Positions 1 through 32,676 of a DNA stretch of 36,390 nt are shown one piece after another; within the stretch, counting starts at the first letter, position 1, and each line of letters begins with the position of its first letter. A model generated the notes under the pieces. The model saw only the letters and a list, made by a program, of their open reading frames with translations, was not told the DNA's origin and searched no databases. The stretch comes from a virus. Where the stretch lies: IMG/VR virus record IMGVR_UViG_3300042691_033374, positions 1-36,390 of that record; one strand, 5' to 3'. The position numbers were made by a program, and so were the translations under genes.

Positions 1-147
1 GAAGTGCTGAATTTGGGCGACTTGGCCAACGTCAACGACACCGCCAAGGTCACGGGCAGCGTCCTGTACTACGACGCCGCCACCAGCACTTGGAGGGGCA
101 ACGACATCAACACCGTCATCACCCTGACGGACGGCGGCAACTTCTGA
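1..147 (+). CDS. Tail fibre-like structural protein, 3' end only
   Basis: The reading frame is open from the first base and stops at 145-147, leaving the last 48 residues of a protein that begins outside the window. The visible part contains GDLANVNDTAKVTGSVLYYD and ends DGGNF. This low-complexity Gly/Asn/Thr/Asp-rich style is typical of cyanophage fibre or structural proteins, in which short 'GDLANV' segments recur. It lies directly upstream of two related fibre-type genes, so a distal tail role is likely. No catalytic motif is visible. The exact function is unknown. Confidence 0.7.
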   Translation, partial: EVLNLGDLANVNDTAKVTGSVLYYDAATSTWRGNDINTVITLTDGGNF

Positions 148-149
148 CC

Positions 150-159
150 GGAAACCTAG
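150..159 (+). promoter_or_regulatory. Late-gene element, variant copy (GGAAACCTAG)
   Basis: A copy of the recurring late element lies 2 bases after the upstream stop codon and 27 bases before the GTG start at 187. It differs from the best form GGCAACTTAG at two positions. A second partial match, GGCAACTTCTG, sits just upstream at 136-146 and includes the stop codon. Role inferred: late promoter or leader element. Confidence 0.45.
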
Positions 160-186
160 CTGCAACGCAGTGTCTTGCCGGTAGCC

Positions 187-1014
187 GTGGCCAACACCAT
201 CCGCATTAAGCGCTCGACGGGGAGCAGCGCACCCACGAGCTTGGCCAATGCGGAGCTTGCCTTTAGCGAGGGCAACGCTGTTCTGCACTACGGCACCGGC
301 ACTGGCGGTGCAGGTGGCAGCGCCACGAGCATCATCAAGATCGGTGGCGCCGGTGCGTTCGCCACACTGGACACCGCTCAGACGATCAGCGGCAACAAGA
401 CCTTCACCGGCACTGTCGATCTCAGTGCTGCCACCATCGGCGCCTTCACCACGACCGGCAACGTGGTCGTCGGTGGTGATCTGACCGTCAACGGCACCAC
501 CACCACGATCAACAGCACCACGCTCGCTGTCGATGACAAGAACATCATCCTGGGCGACGTGGCCTCGCCCACGGACTCCACAGCTGATGGTGGTGGTATC
601 ACCCTGAAAGGTGCAACCGACAAAACCTTTAACTGGATCAATGCCACCGACAGCTGGACATCCAGCGAGGACATTGACCTAGCCAGCGGCAAGGTCTATC
701 GCATCAATGGCGCCAACGTGCTGAGCGGCAGCACGCTCGGCAGCGGTGTCACTGGCTCCAGCCTGACCTCTGTTGGCACCCTCACCAGCGGTGTGTGGAA
801 CGCCAGCACCATTGGCGTGCAGTACGGCGGCACCGGTGCCGCGACCCTCACCGGCTACGTCAAAGGCTCTGGCACCAGCGCCCTCACCGCTTCGGCGACC
901 ATCCCCAACACCGACATCAGCGGTCTGGGCACGATGAGCACCCAGAACGCCAACAACGTGAACATCACCGGCGGCGCGATTGATGGCATCACCTTGGACG
1001 GCGGCAGCTACTGA
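187..1014 (+). CDS. Cyanophage-type tail fibre/structural protein
   Basis: This 275-residue protein is rich in Gly, Thr, Ser and Asn and has beta-repeat character. It starts VANTIRIKRSTG, which resembles the start of the next gene (MANTIKLKSS), so both probably share an N-terminal virion-attachment module. The middle holds GGDLTVNGTTTTINSTTLAV followed by DDKNIILG and GGGITLKG. I recognise this signature from structural proteins of many marine and freshwater cyanophages. The GTG at 187 was chosen because it aligns with the neighbour's start; a TTG at 175 is the alternative. It is a likely fibre or fibre-base component. Receptor specificity cannot be read from the sequence. Confidence 0.75.
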   Translation: MANTIRIKRSTGSSAPTSLANAELAFSEGNAVLHYGTGTGGAGGSATSIIKIGGAGAFATLDTAQTISGNKTFTGTVDLSAATIGAFTTTGNVVVGGDLTVNGTTTTINSTTLAVDDKNIILGDVASPTDSTADGGGITLKGATDKTFNWINATDSWTSSEDIDLASGKVYRINGANVLSGSTLGSGVTGSSLTSVGTLTSGVWNASTIGVQYGGTGAATLTGYVKGSGTSALTASATIPNTDISGLGTMSTQNANNVNITGGAIDGITLDGGSY

Positions 1015-1021
1015 TGCGCCC

Positions 1022-1031
1022 GGAAAGCTAG
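1022..1031 (+). promoter_or_regulatory. Late-gene element, variant copy (GGAAAGCTAG)
   Basis: The copy lies 34 bases upstream of the ATG at 1066. The bases after it (TGCGTCC) are the same as those after the perfect copy at 27865. A small palindrome, GGCTAGATAGCC, follows at 1039-1050. Confidence 0.45.
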
Positions 1032-1065
1032 TGCGTCCGGCTAGATAGCCACCCACGGACGCCAC

Positions 1066-1290
1066 ATGGCGAACACGATCAAGCTCAAAAGCTCTGCCGT
1101 CGCCGGCAAGGTTCCCACCACCAGCGATCTGGAGCTGCGTGAGCTTGGCATCAACACCTACGACGGCGCGATCTACATGAAGCGCAATCAGGGGTCTGAT
1201 GAGATCGTGCGGATCGCTTTTGCGAACCAGGACTATGGGCTGATCACGGGTAGCGCTAGCGGGACGCTCGATTACGGCGCTCTTGTCTGA
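1066..1290 (+). CDS. Small fibre-associated structural protein
   Basis: A 74-residue protein beginning MANTIKLKSSAVAGKVPTTS, with the segment LELRELGINTYDGAIYMKR. Short proteins of this form, with an 'ELAINT.DG.lY.K' pattern, are common near or fused to cyanophage tail fibres. I take it as an N-terminal attachment module made as a separate polypeptide. Its stop codon overlaps the start of the next gene by one base (TGATG), so the two are probably translationally coupled. No enzyme motif is present. Confidence 0.7.
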   Translation: MANTIKLKSSAVAGKVPTTSDLELRELGINTYDGAIYMKRNQGSDEIVRIAFANQDYGLITGSASGTLDYGALV

Positions 1291-3110
1291 TGGCAACCCA
1301 AGTTCAGAATCGTCGCGGCACCACTGCCGAGCACAACACCTTCACGGGTGCGGTTGGTGAGCTGACGGTCGACACCACCAAGGACGTGGTGGTTGTGCAT
1401 GACGGCAGCACGGCGGGCGGCTTTCCAACGCTGCGGCAGGACCAGGCCAACCTGCCCACCAGCGCCCCGTCAAACGGCGTTTATATACCCTCCAGCAACA
1501 ACGTAGCCATCTCGACTAATGGCACTGGGCGGTTGTTTGTTGATGCGAGTGGAAATGTGGGCGCGGGGACATCTAGTCCAACATTGAACACAACTGGTAC
1601 ATGTATTCATGTATCAAACGCATCGGCGGGAAATGCTGCACTTACTCGTTATACAACAGGCGACACTGGCACGGCCGCAACCGATGGCCTTGACGTAGGC
1701 ATGTGGTCCGATGGTGATGCGTTTTTCTGGTTGCGCGAATCGTCAAACATTCGATTTGCTACAGGCTCCACGGAGCGCATGCGCCTGGACTCCAGTGGCC
1801 GCTTAGGTCTGGGGACTTCGAGTGCTCAGGCGTTACTTGATCTGACGACAGGCAACGATCAGGATCACTTGGCCATACGAAACTGGCCCATGCTTAAGCC
1901 AGTCGGCACCGGCATTCGATATGGCGGATATAACAGCAGCCAATGGACAGAGCTATCGTTCTGGACCTCAGGATTGCGGGCAGTTACTGTTGACAACTTA
2001 CAGCGTGTAGGGATTGGCACTACGGGCCCCAGCGCCGCAACTCATGTCGTTCAACCTAGCTCGGGCAGTGATACCTTCCGTGCAGAAAACAGCGCAAGCA
2101 ATAATGTTATTCGGCTTCAGGCGGCTACTTCTACTGATAATTACATAGACTTTTATGCAGGTGCAAGTAGTGGCAGCTTAATCCTTCGGGGAGCCGGCAC
2201 AGAACGCGCCCGCATCGACTCCAGCGGCAGGCTGTTGGTGGGCACGTCTACTGCGCTTAGTGATGCGTCTTCAGTTTCTAGAAGTCTGCAAGTACTAGGA
2301 ACCAGCGCCGCAACCGCTGGTCAATTTATTGCAAGATTCGACAATAGCGTAAACGCTCCCTCTCTTGTACTCGGAAAGTCAAAAGGAGCCACTGTTGGTA
2401 CTTACACAGTTGTTAATTCCGGCGATCAAATTGGACGCCTTGCATTTGATGCGACTGATGGTACAAAGTTTGTTAACGCTGCACTCATTGCGGCCGAAGT
2501 AGACGGCACCCCCGGCGCTAACGACATGCCGGGCCGTTTAGTGTTCTCCACTTGTCCCGACGGGTCAGCTAGTCCGACGGAGCGGATGAGGATTACGAAT
2601 GGTGGGAATGTATTAATTGGCTGTCAAAGCTTGCCTAGTGCTACTGTTGAGGGGTTTGTAGCTACAGGAACAAGCAGCGGAAACAGGACAAGTTCTGGAT
2701 CTTCAACTTCTGCTTACAACCATTGGGTTTTCTATAACGGAAACGGCATTGTTGGATCTATTTCTACAAGTGCTTCTGCGACCACTTATGCCACTTCCTC
2801 CGACTACCGCCTTAAGGAAAACGTTGTCCCGCTAACTGGTGCTGCTGATCGCGTCAAGCAGCTCCAGGTTCACCGCTTCAACTTCATTGCGGATCCTGAC
2901 ACCACCGTTGACGGTTTCCTCGCTCACGAAGCACAAGCGGTTGTTCCTGAATGTGTAACTGGCACCAAGGATGCTGTGGACGCTGACGGCAACCCCGTCT
3001 ACCAAGGCATCGACCAGTCCAAGCTGGTGCCGCTGCTGACTGCTGCGCTGCAGGAAGCGTTGGCTGAGATCGAATCCTTGAGGGCTCGTTTAGACGCAGC
3101 AGGCATCTAA
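1290..3110 (+). CDS. Tail fibre with C-terminal S74 intramolecular chaperone
   Basis: A 606-residue fibre. The N-terminus (MATQVQNRRGTTAEHNTFTG) resembles attachment modules of cyanophage fibres. The centre has repeats of the form 'GNVGAGTSSPT', 'RLGLGTSS' and 'RIDSSGRLLVGTS', typical of trimeric beta-helical shafts with recurring 'TERMR(I/L)' units. The C-terminus contains SSDYRLKENV, then a long helix ending EIESLRARLDA. This is the Peptidase_S74 chaperone that trimerises fibres and cleaves itself off by a Ser/Lys mechanism; the conserved S-D-x-R-L-K is intact. The central part, about 1490-2850, is visibly more AT-rich than both ends and the neighbours, which suggests a swapped receptor-binding shaft. 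The start overlaps the upstream stop. Confidence 0.88.
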   Translation: MATQVQNRRGTTAEHNTFTGAVGELTVDTTKDVVVVHDGSTAGGFPTLRQDQANLPTSAPSNGVYIPSSNNVAISTNGTGRLFVDASGNVGAGTSSPTLNTTGTCIHVSNASAGNAALTRYTTGDTGTAATDGLDVGMWSDGDAFFWLRESSNIRFATGSTERMRLDSSGRLGLGTSSAQALLDLTTGNDQDHLAIRNWPMLKPVGTGIRYGGYNSSQWTELSFWTSGLRAVTVDNLQRVGIGTTGPSAATHVVQPSSGSDTFRAENSASNNVIRLQAATSTDNYIDFYAGASSGSLILRGAGTERARIDSSGRLLVGTSTALSDASSVSRSLQVLGTSAATAGQFIARFDNSVNAPSLVLGKSKGATVGTYTVVNSGDQIGRLAFDATDGTKFVNAALIAAEVDGTPGANDMPGRLVFSTCPDGSASPTERMRITNGGNVLIGCQSLPSATVEGFVATGTSSGNRTSSGSSTSAYNHWVFYNGNGIVGSISTSASATTYATSSDYRLKENVVPLTGAADRVKQLQVHRFNFIADPDTTVDGFLAHEAQAVVPECVTGTKDAVDADGNPVYQGIDQSKLVPLLTAALQEALAEIESLRARLDAAGI

Positions 3111-3133
3111 GACCTACTCTCTAGTCACCTTCT

Positions 3134-3148
3134 AATTTGACTCAAATT
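3134..3148. repeat. Perfect 15-bp AT-rich palindrome
   Basis: AATTTGA-C-TCAAATT lies 24 bases after the fibre stop codon in otherwise GC-rich DNA. No T-tract follows, so it is not a standard terminator. It could be a protein-binding site or a weak transcript end. Confidence 0.4.
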
Positions 3149-3238
3149 TGAAGTTGGCCAGTTCACGTCACTAGGCGGGCAACCGGCCTGTTCAACAGGT
3201 TGCACCACTCTTAGCCTTAAGGCACCGCCACTACACCC

Positions 3239-3789: not shown

Positions 3790-3826
3790 GCACCACTGGC
3801 CTTGCCACAGCCGGCCGCTGCGGTAT

Positions 3827-3852
3827 CGCCTAGACGTAAAAACGACTAGGCG
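3827..3852. repeat. Inverted repeat ahead of the lysis cluster
   Basis: CGCCTAGACGT at 3827-3837 and ACGACTAGGCG at 3842-3852 pair over 10 of 11 positions around an AAAA loop. No T-tract follows, so intrinsic termination is not clear. It sits 14 bases upstream of a perfect late element and could be an operator or a hairpin in the transcript. Confidence 0.5.
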
Positions 3853-3866
3853 CGAATCTTAGCGGG

Positions 3867-3877
3867 GGCAACTTAGG
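3867..3877 (+). promoter_or_regulatory. Late-gene element, perfect copy (GGCAACTTAG)
   Basis: A perfect 10-base copy at 3867-3876, followed by G, lies 24 bases upstream of the GTG start at 3901. It heads the lysis cluster. Confidence 0.6.
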
Positions 3878-3900
3878 CCGAGCGCCCCCACCCCCGTGCG

Positions 3901-4147: not shown

Positions 4148-4157
4148 GGCAACTTAG
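4148..4157 (+). promoter_or_regulatory. Late-gene element, perfect copy (GGCAACTTAG)
   Basis: The copy starts 4 bases after the stop codon of the holin-like gene and lies 19 bases before the ATG at 4177. Two consecutive short lysis genes therefore each carry their own copy. Confidence 0.6.
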
Positions 4158-4532: not shown

Positions 4533-5640
4533 CGCGGTCAAGTTCACCAAGAACGAACCCCACCAGCTCGCAGCGTGGAACTGGCTTGAAAGCGCCCTAA
4601 CCCGCGACCAACTCAACGAGTTCGCGCTGCTGTTCCGCGCCACCCCCGGCTACAAGCCAGGCATCGCGGTGGAGAACAGCTGGGACGGCGTCCTCACCGC
4701 TGCGCGAACCGCCGGCGCCACCTTTCCTGAGCTCGTTGCAGCGCAATGGGCGCTCGAGAGCGGTTTTGGCAAGCACATGCCAGGCGGCAGCAACAACCCC
4801 TTCGGCCTCAAGGGCGCCGGCACCAGCAGCGAAACCCGTGAGTTCGTGAACGGCGAGTGGATCACGATCACCGACTCGTTCCTCAACTTCCCCAACCTCG
4901 CCACTGCCGTCCAGTACCTCGTCGACCGCTGGTACAGGGACTACAAGAACTACAAGGGCGTCAACCGCGAGAAGACGCGCGACGATGCCGCACGGGCGCT
5001 GGTGCGCGAGGGGTACGCAACCGACCCCAGCTACGCGCAGAAGCTCATCGCGTTGATGAACGAGCACGCCCCAGTAAGCAAACTCCCCGCGCCAACGCCG
5101 TTCCCCAACCCCCTGCGCGTCCCCTACTACAGCCAGCGCGACAGCGGCCTGCCGGGCCAAGCGATGCGGATGTGCTTTAGCAGCAGCTGCGCCATGCTCG
5201 TCGCCGCCCTGCGCCCGGGCGCCATCACTGGCCTCGACGCCGACGACCAGTACCTGAAGCGCGTTCAGCAGTTCGGCGACACAACTGACGCCACCGCCCA
5301 GCTCCGGGCGCTGCGAAGCTTCGGCATCCGCGCCAAGTTCACCCAGGACGCCAACTGGAGCGACCTCGAGCGCCAAATCAACCGAGGCGTCCCCGTGCCC
5401 TGCGGCTTCCTGCACCACGGCCCCAGCTCCAACCCCGCAGGGGGCGGCCACTGGCTCACGGTGATCGGCTACACGAAGAGCGCCGTCATCGTCCACGACC
5501 CATTCGGAGACATGGACGTAGTGGAAGGCGTGTACCTCAGCAGCCGCGGCAGCGGGCTCGCATACAGCCGCAAGAACTGGGGTCCCCGCTGGATGGTTGA
5601 AGGCCCAGACACCGGCTGGGCCATCCTTGCCGACCCATGA
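4501..5640 (+). CDS. Endolysin: glucosaminidase plus C39-like peptidase
   Basis: A 379-residue cell-wall hydrolase counted from the ATG at 4501; an in-frame GTG at 4435 would add 22 Pro/Arg-rich residues. The first half carries a glucosaminidase (lysozyme subfamily 2) core with AAQWALESGFGKHMPGGSNN, where Glu86 is the probable catalytic acid. The second half starts VPYYSQRDSG, the usual opening of Peptidase_C39_2 domains. It has a candidate catalytic triad: Cys225 (RMCFSSSCAM), His317 (GGHWLTVIGY) and Asp333 (VHDPFGD). It would cut the glycan with one domain and a peptide with the other. No signal peptide is seen, so export depends on the holin-like neighbours. It ends in an ATGA overlap with the next gene. 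Confidence 0.82.
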   Translation: MSPQRPIRLVDAVKFTKNEPHQLAAWNWLESALTRDQLNEFALLFRATPGYKPGIAVENSWDGVLTAARTAGATFPELVAAQWALESGFGKHMPGGSNNPFGLKGAGTSSETREFVNGEWITITDSFLNFPNLATAVQYLVDRWYRDYKNYKGVNREKTRDDAARALVREGYATDPSYAQKLIALMNEHAPVSKLPAPTPFPNPLRVPYYSQRDSGLPGQAMRMCFSSSCAMLVAALRPGAITGLDADDQYLKRVQQFGDTTDATAQLRALRSFGIRAKFTQDANWSDLERQINRGVPVPCGFLHHGPSSNPAGGGHWLTVIGYTKSAVIVHDPFGDMDVVEGVYLSSRGSGLAYSRKNWGPRWMVEGPDTGWAILADP

Positions 5641-6282: not shown

Positions 6283-6585
6283 ATGAGCGACGGCGAAAGC
6301 AGACCCACCAGCTGGATGGCGTACAGCATCCCTTTGACGGAGGAGCTGAAGCTGGAGCAGGCGATCAGGGAGGTTTCAGGGCACCCAGACATGGACAAGG
6401 TCCGAGCCCTGTGCGCCTCCCTGATGCGCAGCAACTACCACCAGCAACAACTCTTAGCGAACGCGGTGGGTCGCATTGGCGAGCTGGAGCTTGTCCTGTT
6501 CCTTGGCGCTCATGCGGAGCCCAGCGAGGTCAGCGCTTTTCTCTCCATGGCCCGCGAGGTCTGCGAGGACCTTGGCATCGGCTAA
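6283..6585 (+). CDS. Unknown alpha-helical protein convergent with the sigma gene
   Basis: A 100-residue, mainly helical protein ([20 protein letters not shown], then [20 protein letters not shown] and a long final helix). The sequence has real-protein composition, and I recall similar small cyanobacterial phage proteins with a '[11 protein letters not shown]' helix but no function. Its 3' third lies antisense to the last 44 codons of the minus-strand sigma factor gene, a 132-base convergent overlap. A weak CCTAGG site lies about 14 bases before the ATG. Confidence 0.55.
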
Positions 6586-7467
6586 GGGCGACACCGAGCT
6601 CATGTACAGCCGCAGCGTGCGCAGCGCCCTGATCTCAATCTGCCGCACCCGCTCCCTCGACACCCCGAGGTCCTGGGCCAACACCTGATACGCCACAGGC
6701 GCCTTACCAGTCAGCTCGTGGCGGTGTTCAAGCACGTAGCGCTCACGCTCAGACAGTCGTGCCAAGCAGGCTTCCAGACGCCAGCGGTCATCAATCAAAA
6801 AGATGGCGTCGTCGTCCAGGTAGCTGGGGTCTGGGATCAAGTCGATGAGCGGGTTGCCATCGTCCACGCACGACGCATCCAGCGACGTCGGCGCAGCCGT
6901 GCGCTCAAAAATCATCCACATCTGCTCCACCGACATCCCCATCGCATCCGCCAGCTCCTGCTTGCTGGGCGTCCGCCCCAGCTGCTGCGACAGCTGCTGC
7001 ATGGTGTACTTGAGCTTGGGCACCTTCTCAGCGACGTGGTGCGGCAGCCGAATCGCCGCGTCCTGCTGATTCACAGCCCGGTTCATCCCCTGCCGAATCC
7101 ACCAGTAGGCGTAGGTCGAGAACTTGTAGCCCCGCGCGGGGTCAAACTTCTCGACCCCCCGCATCAACCCAATCGTGCCCTCCTGGATGAGGTCAAGCAT
7201 CGTCAGGTGGTTGACGCGCTTGAGGTACTTCTTGGCGATGGAGACCACCATGCGCAAATTGCAGTTCACCATCTGCTGCTTGGCCCTCTCACCCAAGCGC
7301 ACTTCGCGCGCCTCCGCCTTGGTGAGCCGACCCCCTGCCGCCTCCTTCTCGCGCAGCTGCGTCAAGCGCTGCACCTGCCGGCCCAGAAGTACCTCCTGAG
7401 TAACGGTAAGCAGAGGGTAACGAGCGATCTCGTTTAGGAAATCAGAAAAGCTGTGATCAATTCTCAT
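6454..7467 (-). CDS. RpoD-family (sigma-70) sigma factor, phage-encoded
   Basis: A 337-residue sigma factor with regions 1.2 to 4.2 and no region 1.1. Region 1.2 is near the N-terminus ([13 protein letters not shown]). Region 2 spans about 62-150, with [20 protein letters not shown] and the -10 melting/recognition helix [20 protein letters not shown]. Regions 3 and 4.2 follow, the last with an intact -35 helix-turn-helix ([20 protein letters not shown]). At the position matching E. coli sigma-70 Thr440, which contacts base -12, it has Asn129, while Gln126 (Gln437) is kept. About 45 residues after region 4 are extra and antisense to the gene at 6283. It is the last gene of the minus operon, with an ATGA overlap. 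It probably redirects host RNA polymerase to phage promoters. Confidence 0.9.
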
Positions 7468-15081: not shown

Positions 15082-15115
15082 GGGGAGGGGTCTCTTTAAT
15101 ACTCTCCCCCTTTTC
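15082..15115 (+). terminator. Possible terminator after the primase-helicase gene
   Basis: GGGGAG at 15082-15087 can pair with CTCCCC at 15104-15109 around a 16-base loop, followed by CCTTTT. The stem is short, so efficiency is uncertain. The right arm is also part of the long inverted repeat described at 15091. Confidence 0.35.
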
Positions 15116-15345
15116 CTGTCCGAGTTCGCTGAAACCGACTGCGCTGCAATGGATCGGCTCGGACAATCGTACTCGGACTTTGCTCGGACAGTGTCCGAGT
15201 CAAACAGGGCTCATTCTCAATAAGCGCGCTTGTTGCGCGGACAGTGTCCGAGTCTGGCCGAGTCAACTGTCCGAGTCCAAATCCATTCCCCCCCAAGGGG
15301 TTTAGTAGGTACTCGGACAGGCAAACCGGGGGAGTATTAAAGGGA
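15091..15345. repeat. Long-range inverted repeat flanking the site cluster
   Basis: CTCTTTAATACTCTCCCCC at 15092-15110 and GGGGGAGTATTAAAGGGA at 15328-15345 are near-inverse copies that differ by a two-base insertion and one base. They bracket the repeat cluster about 220 bases apart and are the most AT-rich short stretches in the region. Possible roles: matched promoters, an unwinding element or an ori boundary. Confidence 0.5.
15117..15319. repeat. Cluster of at least eight ACTCGGACA/TGTCCGAGT sites
   Basis: Copies read as TGTCCGAGT at 15117-15125, 15192-15200, 15245-15253 and 15268-15276. Reverse copies (ACTCGGACA or one base shorter) lie at 15158-15165, 15171-15178, 15183-15190 and 15311-15319. 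Two form a 17-bp palindrome (CTCGGACA-G-TGTCCGAG, 15183-15199), and an imperfect second palindrome is at 15236-15253. The mixed orientation suggests a dimeric DNA-binding protein. Candidate binders are the 232-residue protein at 15411, the RHH-like protein at 16137 or the primase-helicase. Confidence 0.75.
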
Positions 15346-15410
15346 ACGGGAGTTTGGACCCCTGCTAGTGCGACCTCAGGTAGCGTCAGGGCTACCTAGC
15401 TAGGGCACAC

Positions 15411-16109
15411 ATGACTGACGCGACCCAGGCGCCTCCACTGCTCACCAAACTCGAACAGGGCGCCATCCAGTTCCCCCCAGCATTCCGGGCGCTGAGCAGT
15501 CAGATGACCCAGACGCAGTTCATGAAGCTGGCCGCGGCTTACCTGGGCACCAAGGCGATCCACAGCAGCACGATCGGCGGCTTCCGCAGCGGCAAGCTCA
15601 CCGAACCCGCCCCCAAGACGCTCCTGGCGCTCGGCTACTTCAACACCGCCCTCGCCCGCTCCATCGGCCACCCGGAAGAGCTGATCGAGCAAGCGCCCGA
15701 CATCGGCTACCCACCCAAGCTCCCCCACTACCTCAAGGAGATCTGGGAGCACACCATCCCAATGCTCGACCGCGAAGGCGTTGCTCTGGGGCCTTTGGGC
15801 ATGTTTGAAGCGTTCTGCGGCCTCCGAGAACTCCCCGCCAGCGAACGTCGCTACCTCGACGAGGTCGACGCCCCCAGCGCCAGCCGCGTTCTAGGTGCGT
15901 TCCTGCGCGCCCACTACGGCAAGCACAACATCGACTGGTACGAAAAGCTGCCCGAGCTGGTCTACGACTGCCCCACCATCGAGCCCCTGCTTCTCAACCG
16001 CACGGTGCCAGCAGACCGCCTGATTCACGACCTCGACACCATCGGCCGCCTTGTCGGGCTAAGCGGCAGCGCTCTCTGGGAGCACCTGCAAGCAAACCTA
16101 AGTAGGTAG
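15411..16109 (+). CDS. 232-residue protein, possible DNA-binding regulator or initiator
   Basis: The sequence is helical throughout. A segment at about residues 38-80 (TQTQFMKLAAAYLGTKAIHS, then a Gly/Arg turn and PKTLLALGYFNTAL) could be a lambda-repressor-like helix-turn-helix, and the last 25 residues (IGRLVGLSGSALWEHLQANL) another. No family is firmly recognised. The gene starts about 90 bases after the cluster of palindromic sites and heads the early plus operon, so binding those sites as a repressor or replication initiator is the natural hypothesis. Confidence 0.5.
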   Translation: MTDATQAPPLLTKLEQGAIQFPPAFRALSSQMTQTQFMKLAAAYLGTKAIHSSTIGGFRSGKLTEPAPKTLLALGYFNTALARSIGHPEELIEQAPDIGYPPKLPHYLKEIWEHTIPMLDREGVALGPLGMFEAFCGLRELPASERRYLDEVDAPSASRVLGAFLRAHYGKHNIDWYEKLPELVYDCPTIEPLLLNRTVPADRLIHDLDTIGRLVGLSGSALWEHLQANLSR

Positions 16110-17042: not shown

Positions 17043-17281
17043 CCGTCACCCGCTACCTGATCAAAACAGCACGCGGGTACTACCGCGCCGAGGCCCACCA
17101 GCGGCCCGGTGCGGACCCCAACTGGACTCGCTTCCCCGAAGAAGCCCAGGGGTGGATCGACCTCGACGCCTGCTACAAGGCTTGCCGGCTCTACACCAAG
17201 AACACCGGCGAGAGCGCAGTCGTAGTGGTCACCCTGCGCCCCTCGGCAACCTCGTTCAAAGCTGTAGCCACACCCGCGTGA
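17039..17281 (+). CDS. 80-residue protein, unknown
   Basis: MTVTRYLIKTARGYYRAEAH begins a small alpha/beta protein with a helical centre (WIDLDACYKACRLYTKNTGE) and a strand-rich end (SAVVVVTLRPS). It overlaps the upstream gene by ATGA and the next by GTGA. No family recognised. Its 3' end contains GGCAACCTCG (17245-17254), a loose match to the late element 23 bases before the next start; it is in coding sequence and may be chance. Confidence 0.55.
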   Translation: MTVTRYLIKTARGYYRAEAHQRPGADPNWTRFPEEAQGWIDLDACYKACRLYTKNTGESAVVVVTLRPSATSFKAVATPA

Positions 17282-19692: not shown

Positions 19693-19702
19693 GGCAACTT
19701 AG
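19693..19702 (+). promoter_or_regulatory. Late-gene element, perfect copy (GGCAACTTAG)
   Basis: The copy lies 18 bases before the ATG at 19721, where the early operon gives way to packaging genes. Confidence 0.6.
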
Positions 19703-19720: not shown

Positions 19721-19933
19721 ATGCCGCGCCCCAGCAACAAGGCCGCCGCCAGCGCCATCGAGCGTTATGCGCGCACCAACATCGCTGAGCGCAACGACGC
19801 CTACGGGCAGTTCATGTACCACGCAGAACTCCTTCGCCGAGGGCACACAACCATTCACCAACGCGACTTAGCGACGCTGCCCCGCAAGTACCGCGACACC
19901 ATTCAGCAGTTGCGGCAGGGGTCGGCAACTTAG
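19721..19933 (+). CDS. 70-residue basic protein upstream of the small terminase gene
   Basis: MPRPSNKAAASAIERYARTN opens a basic helical protein that continues ERNDAYGQFMYHAELLRRGH and ends RKYRDTIQQLRQGSAT. No family is recognised. Its stop codon is the TAG of the late element that precedes the next gene. The position suggests a packaging or head-assembly accessory role. Confidence 0.55.
   Translation: MPRPSNKAAASAIERYARTNIAERNDAYGQFMYHAELLRRGHTTIHQRDLATLPRKYRDTIQQLRQGSAT
19924..19933 (+). promoter_or_regulatory. Late-gene element, perfect copy overlapping a stop codon
   Basis: GGCAACTTAG is embedded in the end of the 70-residue gene, so its TAG is that gene's stop. The next start is 28 bases on, at 19962. 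Confidence 0.55.
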
Positions 19934-20381: not shown

Positions 20382-20500
20382 CGCCATTCACTACGGCGAA
20401 AAACGCATTCAGGGCGCATTCACCGCGCAAAAACGCATTCAAGGCGCGAAAAACACATTCAGGGCGCAAAAACGCATTCACACGCTGTTTTTTGCGCCCC
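20381..20500. repeat. Tract of degenerate ~20-bp direct repeats
   Basis: About six units built on ACGCATTCA followed by a GCGC/AAAA block occur from the stop of the small-terminase-like gene to 20500. They read ACGCCATTCA, ACGCATTCA, GCATTCA, ACGCATTCA, ACACATTCA and ACGCATTCA, mostly spaced by 15-22 bases. The tract ends in a hairpin. It is iteron-like and beside the presumed small terminase gene, so a packaging (pac/cos) or binding site is possible. Confidence 0.65.
20462..20499. terminator. Hairpin at the end of the repeat tract
   Basis: GGGCGCAAAAA at 20462-20472 pairs with TTTTTGCGCCC at 20489-20499 over 11 bp, with a 16-base loop. The A and T tracts are in the stem rather than after it, as in bidirectional attenuator-like hairpins. 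It probably ends transcription of the small terminase operon, although it could be another protein-binding repeat. Confidence 0.5.
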
Positions 20501-21459: not shown

Positions 21460-22352
21460 GGCTGAGCCTCCAGCACGAGAGGAGCGGGCGCAGCGCCTGG
21501 CCAGGGGTAAGGGTCATGCCGCCAGCTTTGATCGGGCGCCAGCAAGGGAAGGTCTGTACCTTCCGCGAGGAGCGCCGGGGTCAGTTGAGCGCGCAGGCGC
21601 TTCAGATCGCACCAGTAACCGGAGGAGCACCAGCCGCTTACTTCCTCCTCCCACTCCGGCCCGCACTCATCAAACAGCCAGCGCAGGGCGTCTTCGTCGA
21701 GTTCAGCGGCGCGCTCCTCGCCCCACCAGTCGTCGGCGCCTGAGGGCGCGAGCTCCTGCAGGGCTTCGCCCACCAGCTGGCGGAACTCAGACCGAAACGG
21801 GTCTTCCCACGCCTGCTGTTGCAGTTCGAGCTCGAGCGCGCTGTGATCCTCCTCGCTGATCAACGGATATGACTCCAGCGCCTGCAAGGTCTCGAGCATC
21901 TCCGGCGTGAGGAATCGCACGTCGAGACTGAGCCCGTCGGCGTCGCCGTCGGCGCGCTCAAGTTCGCGGGCGAAGTCTTCCCGGAAGACGCGGGCGTTAC
22001 TGCGCACGATGCTGGGCGCGTCGTAACCGCCCGGCCAGCGGCAATCGTCGTTGAGCCAATCGGAGCACCAAAGCAAGCGCGATTGCCAGCGCGTAGCGGC
22101 GCAGTAAAGGGCGGCCCGCTCCGCGGAACCGCGAGGGTATGGGGCGCCCTCAGGCTCAGCGCCGCCCCAGCTCCGGCCGGACTCAAGCGGCCAGAAGGAG
22201 GAGTCGTCGAGAGTGCGCAGCGCGTAGGACGCGCCGCCCTCCAGCTCGCGGCAATCGACGACCCAGCGGCCTTGGCAGCCGTCGAGAGCGTCGATCCGGC
22301 GCAGGAGCTCCGGCGAGAGGGTGGGCAGGCGCAGGGTAGTGGTTCCGGTCAT
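21456..22352 (-). CDS. Acidic 298-residue accessory protein, unknown
   Basis: The protein is strongly acidic and Trp-rich. A recognisable centre is LTPEMLETLQALESYPLISE followed by EDHSALELELQQQAWEDPFR. I recall a 'YP(V/L)(L/I)(D/S)EEDxSxLExE' motif from phage and plasmid accessory proteins, without an assigned function. Late segments include DDWWGEERAAELDEDALRWL and ECGPEWEEEVSGW. High acidity and its place directly after an ArdA-like gene make a DNA-mimic or anti-defence role plausible; this is inference. It has no membrane segment or enzyme motif. Confidence 0.55.
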   Translation of the reverse strand: MTGTTTLRLPTLSPELLRRIDALDGCQGRWVVDCRELEGGASYALRTLDDSSFWPLESGRSWGGAEPEGAPYPRGSAERAALYCAATRWQSRLLWCSDWLNDDCRWPGGYDAPSIVRSNARVFREDFARELERADGDADGLSLDVRFLTPEMLETLQALESYPLISEEDHSALELELQQQAWEDPFRSEFRQLVGEALQELAPSGADDWWGEERAAELDEDALRWLFDECGPEWEEEVSGWCSSGYWCDLKRLRAQLTPALLAEGTDLPLLAPDQSWRHDPYPWPGAAPAPLVLEAQP

Positions 22353-25300: not shown

Positions 25301-25310
25301 GGAATCCTAG
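25301..25310 (+). promoter_or_regulatory. Late-gene element, variant copy (GGAATCCTAG)
   Basis: This differs by one base from the variant at 150-159 and lies 24 bases before the portal GTG start. Confidence 0.4.
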
Positions 25311-27864: not shown

Positions 27865-27874
27865 GGCAACTTAG
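27865..27874 (+). promoter_or_regulatory. Late-gene element, perfect copy (GGCAACTTAG)
   Basis: The copy begins 11 bases after the previous stop and lies 21 bases before the scaffold ATG. Confidence 0.6.
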
Positions 27875-27895: not shown

Positions 27896-28621
27896 ATGCC
27901 TGAGCAAGTCGTGGGGACTCCTCCCGTGGAGGAGTCAGTTGAGTCCGTGACTCAACAACCCGCCGCCCCCGCGAACGACGACCTCGCTGCACTTCGCGCC
28001 AAGCTCGAACTCGTTCAAAAGGACAACTTGAGCAAAGGCGAAGCCAACCGAACGCTCAACGAGCGCCTCGGCGAAAGCGAGAAACGCCTCCGCGAACTAG
28101 AGGGCAAGCTCAAGACCACAACACAACAAACCCTGGAATCCAGCGGTGAGTACAAACAGTTGTGGAATGACGCCACCGCCGAGAACGCCCGCCTGGTGCA
28201 GCGCATCAGCGACCTCGAAGCCCAGCTCAACGAGAAAGACAGCGCCATCAGCGCCGAACGTCTCCGCGCCACCGCGATCAACGCCATCAGCGCCGCGAAC
28301 GCTTTAGCGCCCGAGCAGCTCTACGGCCTTCTCGCCCCCCAGCTCCGCGACTCCCACGGCACCCCCGTCGTTGTCGTCAACGGCATCGAGCACCCGCTCG
28401 ACGCTCACCTACAGACCCTGCGTTCTGCGGGCAGTGGCTGGGACCACCACTTTGCGGCTGTTACAGCCCGAGGCATGGGAGCAACCGCGAGCGCCAGCCC
28501 CGCTGCCGGCACCCGCAACCCGTACAAGACCGAGAGCTTCAACCTCACCGAAGCCCTACGCCTTGAAGCGGACAACCCCGAGCTCGCCCGAGCCCTAAAG
28601 GCCGAGGCCGGCCGCGGGTAA
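27896..28621 (+). CDS. Capsid scaffolding protein
   Basis: A 241-residue acidic protein. It has a disordered N-terminus (MPEQVVGTPPVEESVESVTQ), a long coiled coil at about 30-125 (LAALRAKLELVQKDNLSKGE, SEKRLRELEGKLK, RLVQRISDLEAQLNEKD), then a linker and a C-terminal helix (SFNLTEALRLEADNPELARA). This plan and its position immediately before the capsid gene are typical of scaffolds, which template head assembly and then leave. The C-terminal helix probably binds the capsid protein. Confidence 0.8.
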   Translation: MPEQVVGTPPVEESVESVTQQPAAPANDDLAALRAKLELVQKDNLSKGEANRTLNERLGESEKRLRELEGKLKTTTQQTLESSGEYKQLWNDATAENARLVQRISDLEAQLNEKDSAISAERLRATAINAISAANALAPEQLYGLLAPQLRDSHGTPVVVVNGIEHPLDAHLQTLRSAGSGWDHHFAAVTARGMGATASASPAAGTRNPYKTESFNLTEALRLEADNPELARALKAEAGRG

Positions 28622-28649
28622 TTCACGGTAAACCCCGCAAATCAGAGCA

Positions 28650-29729
28650 ATGGCCCAACAGAACATGGGCGGGACCTTCCTGTCCAACCTGGTCACCCGC
28701 CCCGAGTTCCTCCAGTACACCGCTGAGAGGATCTTCGAGCAATCCGCCTTCCTGCAGTCCGGCGTCATCACCCGCAACGCCGCCCTCGACGCCCGCGCCG
28801 GTGGCACCCGCGTGCGCGTACCCTTCTTCGACAACATCGGTGGCCTCACCGAGGAAGTCATCACCAGCGGCAACAGCTGGGGCACCTCCGGCGCCGGCTA
28901 CCTCACCAGCCAGAACGTCACTGCCGACGAGCAGATCATGACGATTCTGCACCGCGGCTTCCAGTTCGCCACCGACGACCTCAGCCGGCTCGGCTCGGGC
29001 GCTGATCCCCTTGGCCACGTCGCCAACCAGCTGGCCGGCGCCATCGCCCGGAAGAAGAGCGCCACCCTCCTAGCCCAGCTCGGCGGCCTCTTCGGCAACA
29101 TCGCCGGCTCCGGCGTACTCGGCGGCAACACCACCGATGTCACCGGAACCACCACTGCCACCGCCAGCAACTACCTAACCGCCGCCAATGTGGTGACGGC
29201 CAAAGCGAACCTGGGCGAGCGCTCTAGCGAGCTGACCGCCATTGCGATGCACAGCAATGTCGCTCACTACCTGGAGCAAACCGGCTACCTGCAAGTGCAG
29301 GTCAGCGGCAGCAGCCTCTCCGCCGCCAGCGGCCTCACCGGCGTCAGCTACAACACCTTCGCCGGCCTGCGCGTCATCATCGACGACCAGCTCGGCGTGA
29401 TCAGCGGCGGCACTGCCACCCACCTGAACAAGTACCCCGTGTACCTGTTCGGCGCAGGCGTCATCGCCGAGGGCGTCCAACAAGAGCTGCGCGTCGAAAC
29501 CGACCGCAACAAGAGCTCCTTCCAGGACCTCCTGATCTGCGACTATCACTACGGCTACCACGTAGCCGGCACCAAGTGGTCCGCCGCCGGCGACAACCCC
29601 ACCAACGCCACCACCAGCGGCAACCTGGGCGCCACCGGCTCCTGGGGCCTGGCCTACACCGACGTGCGCAACGTCCCCCTGGTGCGCCTCCTGGTCAACA
29701 CCCCCTTCGACACCGGCGTCTACGCCTGA
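28650..29729 (+). CDS. Major capsid protein
   Basis: A 359-residue protein following the scaffold gene. It starts MAQQNMGGTFLSNLVTRPEF and contains GGTRVRVPFFDNIGGLTEEV, then LHRGFQFATDDLSRLGSGAD with helices, and a beta-rich C-terminal domain (GLRVIIDDQLGV, KYPVYLFGAGVIAEGV). This order of an extended N-arm, spine helix and axial domain fits an HK97-fold capsid. It is followed by a strong terminator, as expected for an abundant product. Upstream there is only a degenerate late element (GGTAAACCCCG, 28627). Confidence 0.85.
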   Translation: MAQQNMGGTFLSNLVTRPEFLQYTAERIFEQSAFLQSGVITRNAALDARAGGTRVRVPFFDNIGGLTEEVITSGNSWGTSGAGYLTSQNVTADEQIMTILHRGFQFATDDLSRLGSGADPLGHVANQLAGAIARKKSATLLAQLGGLFGNIAGSGVLGGNTTDVTGTTTATASNYLTAANVVTAKANLGERSSELTAIAMHSNVAHYLEQTGYLQVQVSGSSLSAASGLTGVSYNTFAGLRVIIDDQLGVISGGTATHLNKYPVYLFGAGVIAEGVQQELRVETDRNKSSFQDLLICDYHYGYHVAGTKWSAAGDNPTNATTSGNLGATGSWGLAYTDVRNVPLVRLLVNTPFDTGVYA

Positions 29730-29745
29730 TCACCCCAGACACAGC

Positions 29746-29774
29746 AAAGCCCCCTCAAACCGGGGGCTTTTTTT
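29746..29774 (+). terminator. Strong intrinsic terminator after the capsid gene
   Basis: AAAGCCCCC (29746-29754) pairs perfectly with GGGGGCTTT (29762-29770) around a 7-base loop, and the T-run continues to 29774. In the other direction only a short T-run follows, so it serves mainly the plus strand. Confidence 0.9.
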
Positions 29775-29781
29775 ATGCGCT

Positions 29782-30060
29782 TTATCCCTCAGCACTAATC
29801 CGCGCCTGCTCCTGCCTCTCAAACACCCCAATCGTGTCCACCGACATCTTGTAGCTCTGCAACATCACCTGATTCACCAACACATAACTCAACTCCAACC
29901 GCTCCGCAATCTCAGGCACCGTCGCCCCCGCCTCTTTCATCTCCCGAATCTGCGGCACAACATCTTCCCACTTCCGCACCCCAGCAACACCCACCTCCTC
30001 CTTCTTCGCCACTTTCTTCTTGGGCGCCTTAGCGCAGGCTGCGGTGTCTTGATCGCTCAT
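29782..30060 (-). CDS. Minus-strand HTH protein inside the head module
   Basis: A 92-residue protein: a Lys-rich N-terminus (AKAPKKKVAKKEE), then a helix-turn-helix (IREMKEAGATVPEIAERLEL, SYVLVNQVMLQSYK) and a helical end. It lies opposite to all neighbours, between the capsid terminator and the adaptor gene, with its own minus-strand late element 19 bases before the ATG. It may be a 'moron'-like insertion or a late regulator. The target DNA is unknown. Confidence 0.65.
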   Translation of the reverse strand: MSDQDTAACAKAPKKKVAKKEEVGVAGVRKWEDVVPQIREMKEAGATVPEIAERLELSYVLVNQVMLQSYKMSVDTIGVFERQEQARISAEG

Positions 30061-30079
30061 GTTGCGGGTGCGATTACAA

Positions 30080-30103
30080 CCGAAGTTGCCCCGGAAAGCT
30101 CGG
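30080..30103. promoter_or_regulatory. Head-to-head late elements forming a palindrome
   Basis: On the minus strand GGCAACTTCGG (30080-30090) faces the gene starting at 30060, with 19 bases between. On the plus strand GGAAAGCTCGG (30093-30103) faces the gene starting at 30120, with 16 bases between. The two are 2 bases apart. The inverse of this 24-bp unit matches the one at 32653-32676 at 21 of 24 positions. Confidence 0.6.
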
Positions 30104-30119
30104 ATAAAGCGCCCAAGCG

Positions 30120-30689: not shown

Positions 30690-30721
30690 CGTACCTAGGT
30701 AGGTCCGCAATAGACTAGGGG

Positions 30722-31279
30722 ATGGCCCAGGTTGCCGCCCCCACCCCTACCGCAACGGGTCCGCGCCACCGGCCCCGCACCGGCTACCTGGCGACCCCCC
30801 TCACCCGCGACGAGCAGCGCCGCATCGCCTCGATGTACCGCGAGCATCGAGGGCTCCTGCGCCTAATGGGACGGAAGTTATGCAGGAAGTACCCGTTTGT
30901 CTCACCGGAGGACGTGTTTTCGTGCATCGACCAAGCGTTCATCAAAACCTGCCGCGCCTGGCAACCCGCCAAGGGCACGTTCAGCACCTTGCTCACCGTC
31001 TTCGCTGAAGGCGACGTGTTGCACTTCATCCGCGACCACAACTGGTTGGTGAAGGCCCCAGGCGCCGTCCGCCGCAACGGCCAACTCGCCCGCAAGATGT
31101 TGGACCGTGGCAGCAGCCGCGAAGAAGTATTGATCGCACTCGAAATCACCGAAGAGCAACTGAAACTCGCCCTCGTTGCCACCAGCCCCACAGACCACGA
31201 CATCCGCGGCTTCGACCTCCACATCTGCCCCCGCGCTACACCCTGGGAGCTGTTAGAGCAAGGCGAGGCGGCAACTTAG
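30722..31279 (+). CDS. Small sigma-factor-like protein (region 2) in the late operon
   Basis: A 185-residue protein. Residues about 42-115 resemble sigma-70 region 2: LLRLMGRKLCRKYPFVSPED, VFSCIDQAFIKTCRAWQPAK, then GTFSTLLTVFAEGDVLHFIR and DHNWLVKAPGAVRRNG. The 'G.fsT.l...a.G.i.hfiRDh.wlvkaP..vR' form is closest to the SigB/SigF/WhiG-type families. Residues 125-152 (SSREEVLIALEITEEQLKLA) resemble a region 3 helix pair. Region 4 is absent. A small region-2 protein of this kind could act as a late sigma like T4 gp55. It has no late element of its own; a TACCTAGGTAGG site and TAGACT precede the ATG. Confidence 0.68.
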   Translation: MAQVAAPTPTATGPRHRPRTGYLATPLTRDEQRRIASMYREHRGLLRLMGRKLCRKYPFVSPEDVFSCIDQAFIKTCRAWQPAKGTFSTLLTVFAEGDVLHFIRDHNWLVKAPGAVRRNGQLARKMLDRGSSREEVLIALEITEEQLKLALVATSPTDHDIRGFDLHICPRATPWELLEQGEAAT

Positions 31280-31280
31280 G
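31270..31280 (+). promoter_or_regulatory. Late-gene element, perfect copy overlapping a stop codon
   Basis: GGCAACTTAG (31270-31279), followed by G, includes the TAG stop of the sigma-like gene and lies 22 bases before the tail tube ATG. Confidence 0.6.
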
Positions 31281-31301
31281 GCCATAAGCTCCCCTGCTCC
31301 C

Positions 31302-31781
31302 ATGGCAACCGGCGCCTTTTTCAACAGCCTCGGCTACAAGTTTTACGTGAAAGCGGGCACCACCGCTTCCACCAACCCCACCACCAGCACCGGCATGACC
31401 GAAGTGCTGTCGCTGACCGACGCCTCCCTCCAAGGCTCAACCCAAACCCAAGACGTACTCGACTACGGCAGCACTCTTGGCTTCACCGCATCCATCGTGC
31501 AGCAGCAGAGCTACACGATTCCGATGTCGATGAACCTCAACCTCAACGACGCCGGCTACATCGTTCTTAAAAACGCCTCGCTCAACGCCGCCGACGGCAC
31601 CACTGTTCAGTGGTTCCGCGAGTCCCCCGAGATGAGCACCACCGGCAACCCTGAGTACCACTCCGGCGTTGCATGGGTGACCGACTTCTCTGAGTCCATC
31701 GCCGCCGGCAACGTGGCCCAGGTCACCTTCACCCTCACCGGCTACGGCGCCTACACCTGGAGCGCCGAAACCAACGCCTGA
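31302..31781 (+). CDS. Major tail tube protein
   Basis: A 159-residue beta-rich protein: MATGAFFNSLGYKFYVKAGT, then TSTGMTEVLSLTDASL, YTIPMSMNLNLNDAGYIVLK and a final AAGNVAQVTFTLTGYGAYTW. A length near 160 residues, the beta-sandwich pattern and the 'v.Ftltgyg' end fit siphovirus tail tube proteins. It is preceded by a perfect late element and followed by a terminator, as suits a very abundant protein. The tape measure gene follows two minus-strand genes further on. Confidence 0.78.
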   Translation: MATGAFFNSLGYKFYVKAGTTASTNPTTSTGMTEVLSLTDASLQGSTQTQDVLDYGSTLGFTASIVQQQSYTIPMSMNLNLNDAGYIVLKNASLNAADGTTVQWFRESPEMSTTGNPEYHSGVAWVTDFSESIAAGNVAQVTFTLTGYGAYTWSAETNA

Positions 31782-31801
31782 TCAGCAGTAGGGAGCTAAG
31801 C

Positions 31802-31831
31802 GCCCGCTGCCCCACAGGGTGGCGGGCTTTT
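31802..31831 (+). terminator. Intrinsic terminator after the tail tube gene
   Basis: GCCCGC (31802-31807) pairs with GCGGGC (31822-31827), an inner CCC/GGG extends the stem, and TTTT follows. It lies between convergent genes. Confidence 0.8.
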
Positions 31832-32258
31832 ACGCGCCCCCAATCTTGCGCCACTCCCTCACAAAGAACTCCGTCGGATCCTGCGCTCTCAGCACCGGCG
31901 TAATCCAATCCCGCCCCGGCGCGATGTAAGCATCCATCATCGTCCCGACTATAAAACCACCCTCAAGCACATCCCCGGAGTACGGCACCCTCCACGTAAT
32001 CGTCAGGCTGTTTGAGGTGATCTGCGGCGCAGATTGCGACTGCAGCAGATCGCCTGTATCCACGATGTCCCGCCGCCCCCTAGGAACAAACTTTCCCGAG
32101 TACAGGCCGACCACGCGCCGCGTCGGCACCCCCCACTGATACACCTTCGCCTTAATCGAATCCTGCAACAGCGGCGTAATCTTCACGCCATAGCTGGCGA
32201 GCACCCGCGGCACCCGCTGCAGCAGCCGGTCCGCATTCCACTGCGTAACCCGCGCCAT
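31830..32258 (-). CDS. Probable neck/minor tail protein (HK97 gp10-like), minus strand
   Basis: A 142-residue protein from the ATG at 32258 (a GTG one codon earlier is possible). It has a helical N-terminus (ARVTQWNADRLLQRVPRVLA), then VDTGDLLQSQSAPQI, a strand segment SLTITWRVPYSGDVLEGGFI, and a C-terminal RDWITPVLRAQDP. The 'vdTGdLl.S......' pattern followed by a strand and 'r.Wi.pal' is typical of HK97 gp10-type head-tail joining proteins. It is encoded opposite to the neighbouring structural genes, with the partner gene at 32650. Confidence 0.65.
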   Translation of the reverse strand: MARVTQWNADRLLQRVPRVLASYGVKITPLLQDSIKAKVYQWGVPTRRVVGLYSGKFVPRGRRDIVDTGDLLQSQSAPQITSNSLTITWRVPYSGDVLEGGFIVGTMMDAYIAPGRDWITPVLRAQDPTEFFVREWRKIGGA

Positions 32259-32650
32259 CACCCCACCTGCTCACGGGACACCAGCTGCACCCTCTCCCCA
32301 AGCGCCGCGCCCAGCGTCTCGCCAAGCAACCCCGTCTTGCCATACGGCAGCCGCAGCGCCGTCACCTCACACTCCACCGCACCCGCACCCCCAAACGCCA
32401 CAACACCCTCCGTCCCCACGACAACTCGCTCGTCCAGCGCCTCCAGGGCGTAGCCATCAAACGTCGTCTCCGTCATCTCCACGCCCGGAAACGCCGTACC
32501 CCGCACCCGCTCCGCCTTCAGAAACAGCGGGACCGACACAGTGGCAGTGGCTGGTGTGACGTTGCCGGTCGTCGGGTCCGTCACCACACCAGCCCCCGCG
32601 ACGGTGAACGTCGCGGTTGCGTTAGCGAGCGCGCTCAGAGCAGAAGTCAT
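32258..32650 (-). CDS. Probable head-tail joining protein, minus strand
   Basis: A 130-residue beta-rich protein: NATATFTVAGAGVVTDPTTG, NVTPATATVSVPLFLKAERV, GVEMTETTFDGYALEALDER. 'TDPtTGN' with a later 'G..lpygktgllGe..g..l' region suggests a head-tail connector-type protein. Its stop overlaps the next minus gene's start by one base. The minus-strand late element ends 2 bases before this ATG, much closer than elsewhere, so either the real start is further in or the element acts differently here. Confidence 0.55.
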   Translation of the reverse strand: MTSALSALANATATFTVAGAGVVTDPTTGNVTPATATVSVPLFLKAERVRGTAFPGVEMTETTFDGYALEALDERVVVGTEGVVAFGGAGAVECEVTALRLPYGKTGLLGETLGAALGERVQLVSREQVG

Positions 32651-32652
32651 AA

Positions 32653-32676
32653 CCGAGCTTTCCCCGGCAACCTCGG
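32653..32676. promoter_or_regulatory. Head-to-head late elements forming a palindrome
   Basis: On the minus strand GGAAAGCTCGG (32653-32663) faces the gene at 32650. On the plus strand GGCAACCTCGG (32666-32676) lies 21 bases before the tape measure GTG. The pair is separated by CC, exactly as in the unit at 30080. Confidence 0.6.

Follow-up and report, generated by a model that had tools for sequence, protein, structure and literature searches.

A short conserved element before late genes of a probable cyanosiphovirus and its relatives, a candidate extended –10 promoter for a small phage sigma factor

Phage SPO1 encodes a late sigma factor of its own, gp33/gp34, and its late promoters are two-boxed. 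In the Bacillota, sigma factors of the SigB/SigF type have a region 4 and a –35 box, and their –10 boxes begin with GG. Phage T4 has gp55, which acts with gp33 and gp45 as a phage sigma factor without region 4 at a single short box before late genes; as the section of PMC2988020 that treats it describes, recognition by gp55 is limited to the –10 site and opening proceeds without an equivalent of region 4. In cyanophages, sigma factors were counted in 65 of 153 sequenced genomes by the relevant part of a 2023 review (PMC10452541), and for the group 3 sigma of P-SS2 'a particular regulon' was the guess offered in 2009 in a paper whose accessible sections sought and reported only sigma-70 promoters (PMC2784084). 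Which promoters the cyanophage group 3 sigmas read is left open in those parts of both sources (PMC10452541, PMC2784084). Here we describe a 10-bp element, GGCAACTTAG with its variants (degenerate form GGNAANYTMG), in the complete IMG/VR virus record IMGVR_UViG_3300042691_033374, whose full stretch of 36,390 bases, 63% G+C, is the window analysed. We give a probability of about 0.8 to the reading that the GGCAACTTAG family is an extended –10 late promoter read by a small phage-encoded sigma factor, an arrangement that would be like that of gp55 and the T4 late promoter.

The plus strand of the window carries six exact copies of GGCAACTTAG and the minus strand carries none, against 0.01 expected by chance; six were reached in 0 of 100 shuffled sequences. 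The original prediction, made from the letters of the DNA, had placed these copies at the coordinates given in Table 1, 18–28 nt (from the motif end) before a start codon, and had called them rare by chance. All of this holds, as does its remark that two copies overlap the stop codon of the upstream gene (19924 with TAG at 19931–19933 and 31270 with TAG at 31277–31279). The variants listed with them, at 150, 1022, 25301, 30093 and 32666 on the plus strand and at 30081–30090 and 32654–32663 on the minus strand, are found as well; a match at 136, where the range originally given began, has two mismatches, lies within coding sequence and falls outside the set. The degenerate form GGNAANYTMG matches 13 times against 3.18 expected, as many being reached in 0 of 100 shuffles, and 12 of the 13 matches lie 13–44 nt upstream of late genes, counted from the first base of the motif to the start codon. 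The sole match away from a late gene start is the loose one at 17245, which is intragenic, as had been noted, and the site at 25301 is a further variant besides the 13. Each of the two minus-strand sites precedes a minus-strand late gene, so the orientation of the element tracks the gene and not the genome.

Three scans of IMG/VR yielded 111 related loci (L007–L117) from 102 contigs. In 96 of them (L007–L102) GGNAANYTMG has 400 plus-strand and 89 minus-strand occurrences, of which 150 and 37 remain once sites at least 60% alike are removed. The logo of the 150 nonredundant plus-strand sites reads cGG[C/A]AA-c-[C/T]T[A/C]G, followed by G, two free positions and an A-rich stretch at positions 13–16. 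It holds no conserved signal in the 60 nt upstream of the element, and thus no –35 box. Starts of orthologous genes were located by tblastn, the 80 nt upstream of each were inspected and sequences at least 70% alike were collapsed; the start codons are predicted ones. Late genes carry the element at 138 of 281 such starts and early genes at 0 of 37 (nominal Fisher P = 2e–10), while the small sigma gene itself has it at 0 of 38; the fractions for single genes are given in Table 1. Equal density upstream of early genes or within genes had been named beforehand as evidence that would speak against the element. What we found is its absence from the early starts, and in the window a single one of the 13 degenerate matches inside a gene and away from a start.

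Controls agree with this picture. The reversed motif was found at 0 of 360 starts, and the reverse complement at 46 of 281 late starts, all of them at the four genes of divergent pairs (7, 6, 29 and 4), where one would expect to meet the element of the partner gene. Nine genes classed as late have no element in any relative, and all of them are counted in the 281 except the single row of the gene at 5637, which was tallied apart. The genes at 1066 and 5637 have one usable relative each; the fibre genes at 187 and 1290, PolA and the primase-helicase have no usable orthologue start, and the unclassified genes at 22352 and 23174 (0 of 3 rows) stand outside both the late and the early counts.

Table 1. 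Coordinates of the element sites and of the genes and signals discussed in the text (x/y, nonredundant relatives with the element among those with a usable start)
Position	Strand	Feature	Relatives or matches
150..159	+	GGAAACCTAG, before fibre-like gene (start GTG 187, assigned from N-terminus similarity to next gene)	
1022..1031	+	GGAAAGCTAG, before 1066 gene	sole usable relative without element
3867..3876	+	GGCAACTTAG, before 3901 gene (weak holin match)	5/5
4148..4157	+	GGCAACTTAG, before small 4177 gene (no family match)	4/4
6454..7467	–	RpoD-like sigma, regions 1.2, 2, 3 and 4; unlikely reader of the element	Pfam
19693..19702	+	GGCAACTTAG, before 19721 gene	2/2
19924..19933	+	GGCAACTTAG, before 19962 gene (small terminase by guess); holds TAG stop of upstream gene	3/5
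25301..25310	+	variant GGAATCCTAG, before portal gene (start 25335)	GGNAANYTMG in 14/17
27865..27874	+	GGCAACTTAG, before scaffold gene (27896), head of scaffold-capsid unit	21/23
27896..28621	+	scaffold gene, element-headed	phrog_206, E 3.4e–8
28650..29729	+	major capsid gene, without own element	phrog_247; 0/18
29746..29770	+	strong intrinsic terminator (predicted) after capsid gene, 3' end of scaffold-capsid unit	
30081..30090	–	GGCAACTTCG, before minus gene starting at 30060	GGNAANYTMG 7/8, GGNAANYTHG 8/8
30093..30102	+	GGAAAGCTCG, before head-tail adaptor gene (30120), back to back with 30081–30090	27/34
30693..30704	+	palindrome ACCTAGGTAGGT, upstream of small sigma gene; candidate operator	
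30711..30716	+	TAGACT, candidate sigma-70-type –10 of small sigma gene, 5 nt upstream of ATG	
30722..31279	+	185-aa protein of the sigma-70 family with region 2 and a region-3-like part, region 4 undetected; proposed late sigma	
31270..31279	+	GGCAACTTAG, before tail tube gene (31302); overlaps sigma gene stop	34/34
31302..31781	+	tail tube gene, element-headed	tail protein PHROGs
32654..32663	–	GGAAAGCTCG, predicted leaderless: ATG of minus gene (32650) 13 nt past first base of motif	GGNAANYTMG 17/29
32666..32675	+	GGCAACCTCG, before 32698 gene (probable tape measure), back to back with 32654–32663	4/4

The distance between the element and the start codon falls into two classes. For 11 genes, counted with GGNAANYTHG (T allowed at the ninth position) and leaving out motifs that touch the start codon (distance 10), the first G lies 13–14 nt before the start codon in 19 cases, 15–25 nt in none, 26–46 nt in 131 and farther than 46 nt in one. 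All 19 short cases belong to the minus gene at 32650, in which this form of the motif is present in 29 of 29 relatives. A transcription start near motif position 13–14 would account for both classes: the mRNA would then begin at the ATG itself or carry a leader of at least ~12 nt. The A-rich logo positions 13–16 fit a start on A. With position 14 as the putative start, GG would occupy –14/–13, the A of position 3 would be at –11 and the T of position 7 at –7. At the other end of the proposed transcription units, a hairpin resembling a terminator is found behind the capsid gene in 51 of 78 loci, behind the tube gene in 50 of 79 and behind the scaffold gene in 6 of 69. The portal gene (0 of 52), the minor head gene (0 of 64) and the adaptor gene (0 of 88) never have one there; these counts are of loci, with redundancy uncollapsed. 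The pattern indicates that scaffold-capsid and tube form element-headed units that are often closed by a terminator. In the two back-to-back pairs of the window, 30081–30102 and 32654–32675, 2 bp separate the GG ends, a gap that varies in relatives.

The candidate reader is encoded among these late genes. The small sigma-like protein matches sigma PHROGs (E 8.5e–10 and 5.7e–8), and 29 of the 33 aligned members of its family match Pfam Sigma70_r2 at E up to 1. The ten families that the 33 members match at this threshold do not include Sigma70_r4, and the protein ends after its region-3-like part; the RpoD-like protein of the record does show region 4 with the same Pfam library. In a profile search of the PDB, SigB chain 8x6g was matched over profile positions 37–153 (E 3e–5) and sigma chain 1l0o at E 0.02. 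The AlphaFold2 model (pLDDT 72, pTM 0.49) reaches 82–90 in ten-residue blocks over residues 31–100 and 88–94 over residues 121–150, and the 50 best rows listed in the structural comparison are all sigma chains. Both the sequence and the predicted fold of the protein are like those of sigma region 2. A sigma factor without region 4 is expected to read a –10 box, with or without a GG extension, and no –35 box; the element resembles such a box.

As stated above, the small sigma gene has no copy of the element at its own start. What precedes it in 23 of 38 relatives is a TAnnnT box 9–16 nt before the start codon, which 10 of 322 starts of other genes have (5 of 37 in early genes and 5 of 121 in seven late ones); part of the misses stem from wrongly mapped start codons. 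We infer that TAnnnT, about 6 nt and the ATG make up a leaderless sigma-70-type promoter. This suggests a cascade in which the host sigma or the RpoD-like sigma would serve the small sigma gene, and the small sigma the late genes. A palindrome, ACCTAnnTAGGT, also lies before the small sigma gene (30693–30704) and recurs at the end of the 15411 gene (16096–16107) and before that gene (15395–15404), where it has the form CCTAnnTAGG. Several relatives have boxes like it ahead of their sigma gene. The palindrome may be where a regulator of lysogeny or of middle genes binds, as its operator.

The pairing of sigma and element extends to cultured cyanophages, marine ones among them. The group 3 sigmas of S-CRES1, S-CRES3, P-SS2 and S-CBS2 are homologous to the small sigma (hhalign, 97.5%, E 6e–12 over 149 columns) and, like it, show region 2 only in Pfam. 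In these phages a related pattern, GGNANNCTAG, often stands 24–60 nt ahead of an annotated start: 8 of its 11 matches do so in P-SS2, 11 of 15 in S-CBS2, 11 of 16 in S-CRES1 and 10 of 15 in S-CRES3, which pooled gives 40 of 57 against 1.56 expected; 36 of the 40 stand at 28–37 nt. Three control patterns gave 0–1 near-start matches per genome. Six phages in which tblastn detected no homologue of the sigma together have 2 of 15 (KBS-S-2A 0 of 1, S-2L 0 of 1, S-LBS1 0 of 0, S-CBS3 0 of 0, MED4-117 2 of 8 and the first 40 kb of S-CBS4 0 of 5), and the difference between phages with and without the sigma has a nominal Fisher P of 2e–4, the counts being pooled by hand. A scan with a position weight matrix (122 training sites, top 14 matches per genome) agrees with this, with near-start matches numbering 4 in P-SS2, 4 in S-CBS2, 3 in S-CRES1 and 4 in S-CRES3, and 0 in KBS-S-2A, 1 in S-2L, 0 in S-LBS1 and 2 in MED4-117. 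We also noticed that the sigma gp077 of S-CBS2 (L129:16832–17564) is annotated shorter than its S-CRES relatives and that the tblastn match resumes in a second piece; either a frameshift or a sequencing error may be the cause.

Taken alone, the element is very probably a late promoter, and the small sigma is its probable reader. The element would be a single-box extended –10, GGNAANYTMG followed by G and, 3–6 nt later, an A-rich stretch, with no –35 box, and it would be read by the host core RNA polymerase carrying the small sigma, with its regions 2 and 3 and no detectable region 4. The sigma gene would be switched on earlier, from the sigma-70-type TAnnnT box at its start codon, and the appearance of its product would turn on most virion and lysis-associated genes. 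One element would head each transcription unit, and divergent late genes would use two elements back to back. The original prediction had left the choice between a late promoter and a conserved leader element. That pair of options is supported, and of the two we favour the promoter because of the bimodal spacing, the units often ended by terminators, the lack of an RNA-structure signal and the co-occurrence with a phage sigma.

If the motif acted instead in the late mRNA, near the ribosome site, where an RNA-binding factor of the phage or of its host would bind it, its closeness to starts, mostly 26–46 nt, would be understandable, and with a Shine-Dalgarno-like tetramer in just 4 of 96 leaders (tube, scaffold, adaptor and portal) another aid to initiation would be welcome. 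We consider this unlikely, since the leaders give no structure signal (mean z 0.19, n = 96) and no Rfam match at the gathering score, and since the jump in spacing from 13–14 to at least 26 nt fits a transcription start and not an element spaced from the ribosome. Moreover, the capsid gene, expected to be highly translated, lacks the element yet stands behind an element-headed gene, and a sigma factor is what the element co-occurs with. It is more improbable still that the element is the operator of a DNA-binding activator whose true promoter lies elsewhere. The inverted back-to-back copies do look operator-like, and the gene of a helix-turn-helix protein (29782–30060) adjoins one of the two pairs; most sites, however, are single and directional, with the leaderless spacing a second promoter would not fit downstream, and the 60 nt upstream contain no further conserved box. 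Of 28 loci picked by hand in which the motif is retained, 25 gave no detectable helix-turn-helix protein, though a diverged form could escape such a search, and we rejected this protein both as reader and as a detached region 4. Its model gave weak general matches (best E 0.86), with no sigma among the 50 listed, an absence from the list that excludes nothing. The protein itself, 92 aa with a basic N-terminus and encoded on the minus strand divergently from the adaptor, is conserved but was detected in a subset of relatives only.

The –35 boxes of extracytoplasmic function (ECF) sigma factors often contain GGAAC, and GGCAACTT is superficially like such a box. That the element is one is very unlikely: the logo has no second conserved box 15–20 nt downstream beyond the A-rich positions 13–16, for which we rejected this candidate, and the base that separates AA from CT varies. 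With such spacing a –10 box would coincide with the start codon or lie close to it, and region 4, the part that reads a –35 box, is undetected in the candidate sigma. Short conserved promoters before late genes are also typical of phages with a single-subunit, T7-like RNA polymerase; we find this the least credible of the alternatives, with no such polymerase among the ten record proteins searched against Pfam and a sigma-like protein encoded in the late cluster itself. PF00940 is unmatched in the record, but it is unmatched in the control genomes as well. As for the RpoD-like sigma of the record, it was rejected as the reader, because KBS-S-2A, S-LBS1 and S-CBS3 have RpoD-like sigmas or sigmas annotated as RpsD4 and no near-start element; no small sigma was detected in these three phages.

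Several observations weigh against the promoter reading. The original prediction had listed the genes served, and this list needs one correction: 'packaging' fits only the small 19962 gene, whose role is guessed, and the terminase large subunit lacks the element (0 of 16 orthologue starts). So do other late genes: minor head (0 of 22), capsid (0 of 18), the second minus gene at 32261 (0 of 29), the 35512 gene (0 of 24), endolysin (0 of 4), the 3239 gene (0 of 2) and the 1066 gene (0 of 1). The form GGNAANYTMG was picked after the variants had been seen, which makes part of its excess post hoc; that choice has no bearing on the six exact copies. The excess of GGNANNCTAG, which is looser than the motif of the record and was chosen after the matrix scan, is partly post hoc as well. 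MED4-117, in which no such sigma was found, has its two matches 49–52 nt before starts, where 0.24 would be expected, and the 40 genes served in the four sigma-bearing phages comprise, by annotation, 19 virion, packaging or lysis genes, 19 hypothetical ones and two that are RNA polymerase-like. Relatives and compared phages share ancestry, and both P-values therefore overstate independence. On the side of the protein, the small sigma of the record scores 18.5 bits against Sigma70_r2, below the cut-off of 24, and the overall confidence of its model is moderate. Foldseek alone is weak (best E 0.0036, none below 0.001), and the structural matches, with Z 9.8 for 8b3z (2.1 A over 77 residues) and Z 8.3 for sigma-28 1rp3 (5.2 A over 135), fall below Z of about 13, where scores are common among helical folds.

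The rest of the gene content suggests a temperate phage of cyanobacteria. Pfam identifies a serine recombinase, a family A DNA polymerase, ThyX and the RpoD-like sigma; tail fibres, an endolysin, a terminase and a portal protein are also encoded, and the minor head, scaffold, capsid, head-tail adaptor and tail tube proteins were assigned by PHROG matches. The long 32698 gene would be the tape measure by its length and place, its family matches being weak. In the phage collection the nearest relatives of terminase and portal are those of cyanophages, including KBS-S-2A, S-H1, MED4-117 and S-2L, at 32–45% identity, so that the record is probably a temperate cyanosiphovirus, a host and habitat assignment read from sequence. 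A scan of genome contigs returned one relative (L121), a 3.3 kb contig in a Rhodoferax metagenome-assembled genome with no evidence of a prophage, and this is probably a stray phage contig.

Some other features of the window deserve mention. Between tail tube and tape measure, two conserved overlapping genes run on the minus strand (31830–32650), with 77 and 70 mapped relatives and no Pfam or PHROG match; our guess is that they encode tail completion proteins against the late direction. In the gap before the 15411 gene, two arms of a 35-nt inverted repeat (15091–15125 and 15311–15345), 86% complementary and 185 nt apart, may belong to a small RNA or an att-like site. Behind 20381, the gap holds a 23-mer, GCGAAAAACGCATTCAGGGCGCA, in three direct but imperfect repeats (20396–20468), next to a G+C-rich stretch of 3 kb with few recognised genes; these repeats are a possible origin or regulator binding array.

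Compared with the systems described at the outset, the proposed pair is new in sequence and of a kind already known from T4 gp55. Like gp55, the small sigma is a phage sigma in which region 4 is not seen. The likeness to T4 would extend to the placement of a –10 without a –35 if the single box in the logo of 150 sites has the position relative to the transcript start that we infer. The box itself, however, is GGNAANYTMG and not the 8-bp TATA box of T4; the closest solved relatives of the small sigma are SigB-type; no gp33-like coactivator or clamp dependence is known for it, and the record is a siphovirus, not a relative of T4. The group 3 (SigF-like) sigmas of P-SS2 (ORF003), S-CBS2 and the S-CRES phages are nearer, being homologous and found with a similar element before late-type and hypothetical genes, whereas their genomes are larger (71–108 kb), their sigmas longer (206–244 aa) and their element looser. 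With SPO1 the record would share a late sigma encoded by the phage, and Bacillus phage sigmas are distant matches to the P-SS2 and S-CRES1 proteins. By sequence profile the best solved relatives of the small sigma are the SigB/SigF-type group 3 sigmas of the Bacillota, from which it differs in that neither region 4 nor a –35 box is seen in the phage protein and its element. The portions considered of PMC6157547, PMC5780444, PMC6293099 and PMC10452541 do not mention the element, and a search of the open-access literature, for which the letters of the motif did not serve as query, showed no prior report of it among the matches listed.

It appears, with odds somewhat better than even for the reading as a whole, that uncultivated and cultured cyanosiphoviruses alike possess a late switch of the gp55 kind, with an origin separate from that of T4. 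Such a switch would consist of a SigB/SigF-type sigma that has lost region 4 and recognises only the –10 and extended –10, and of a single-box promoter of the GGNANNCTAG type heading most late units; it would allow leaderless mRNAs and a 22-bp back-to-back packing in which divergent units would compete for one polymerase. For the cyanophage group 3 sigmas our analysis supplies a concrete candidate regulon, a candidate promoter sequence and predicted start sites, cultured phages included. If this is true, they would form a second lineage of phage late sigmas without region 4, beside T4 gp55. The compact promoter-sigma pair may work orthogonally in cyanobacteria, and the element may serve as a marker for late transcription units in the genomes of uncultivated phages.

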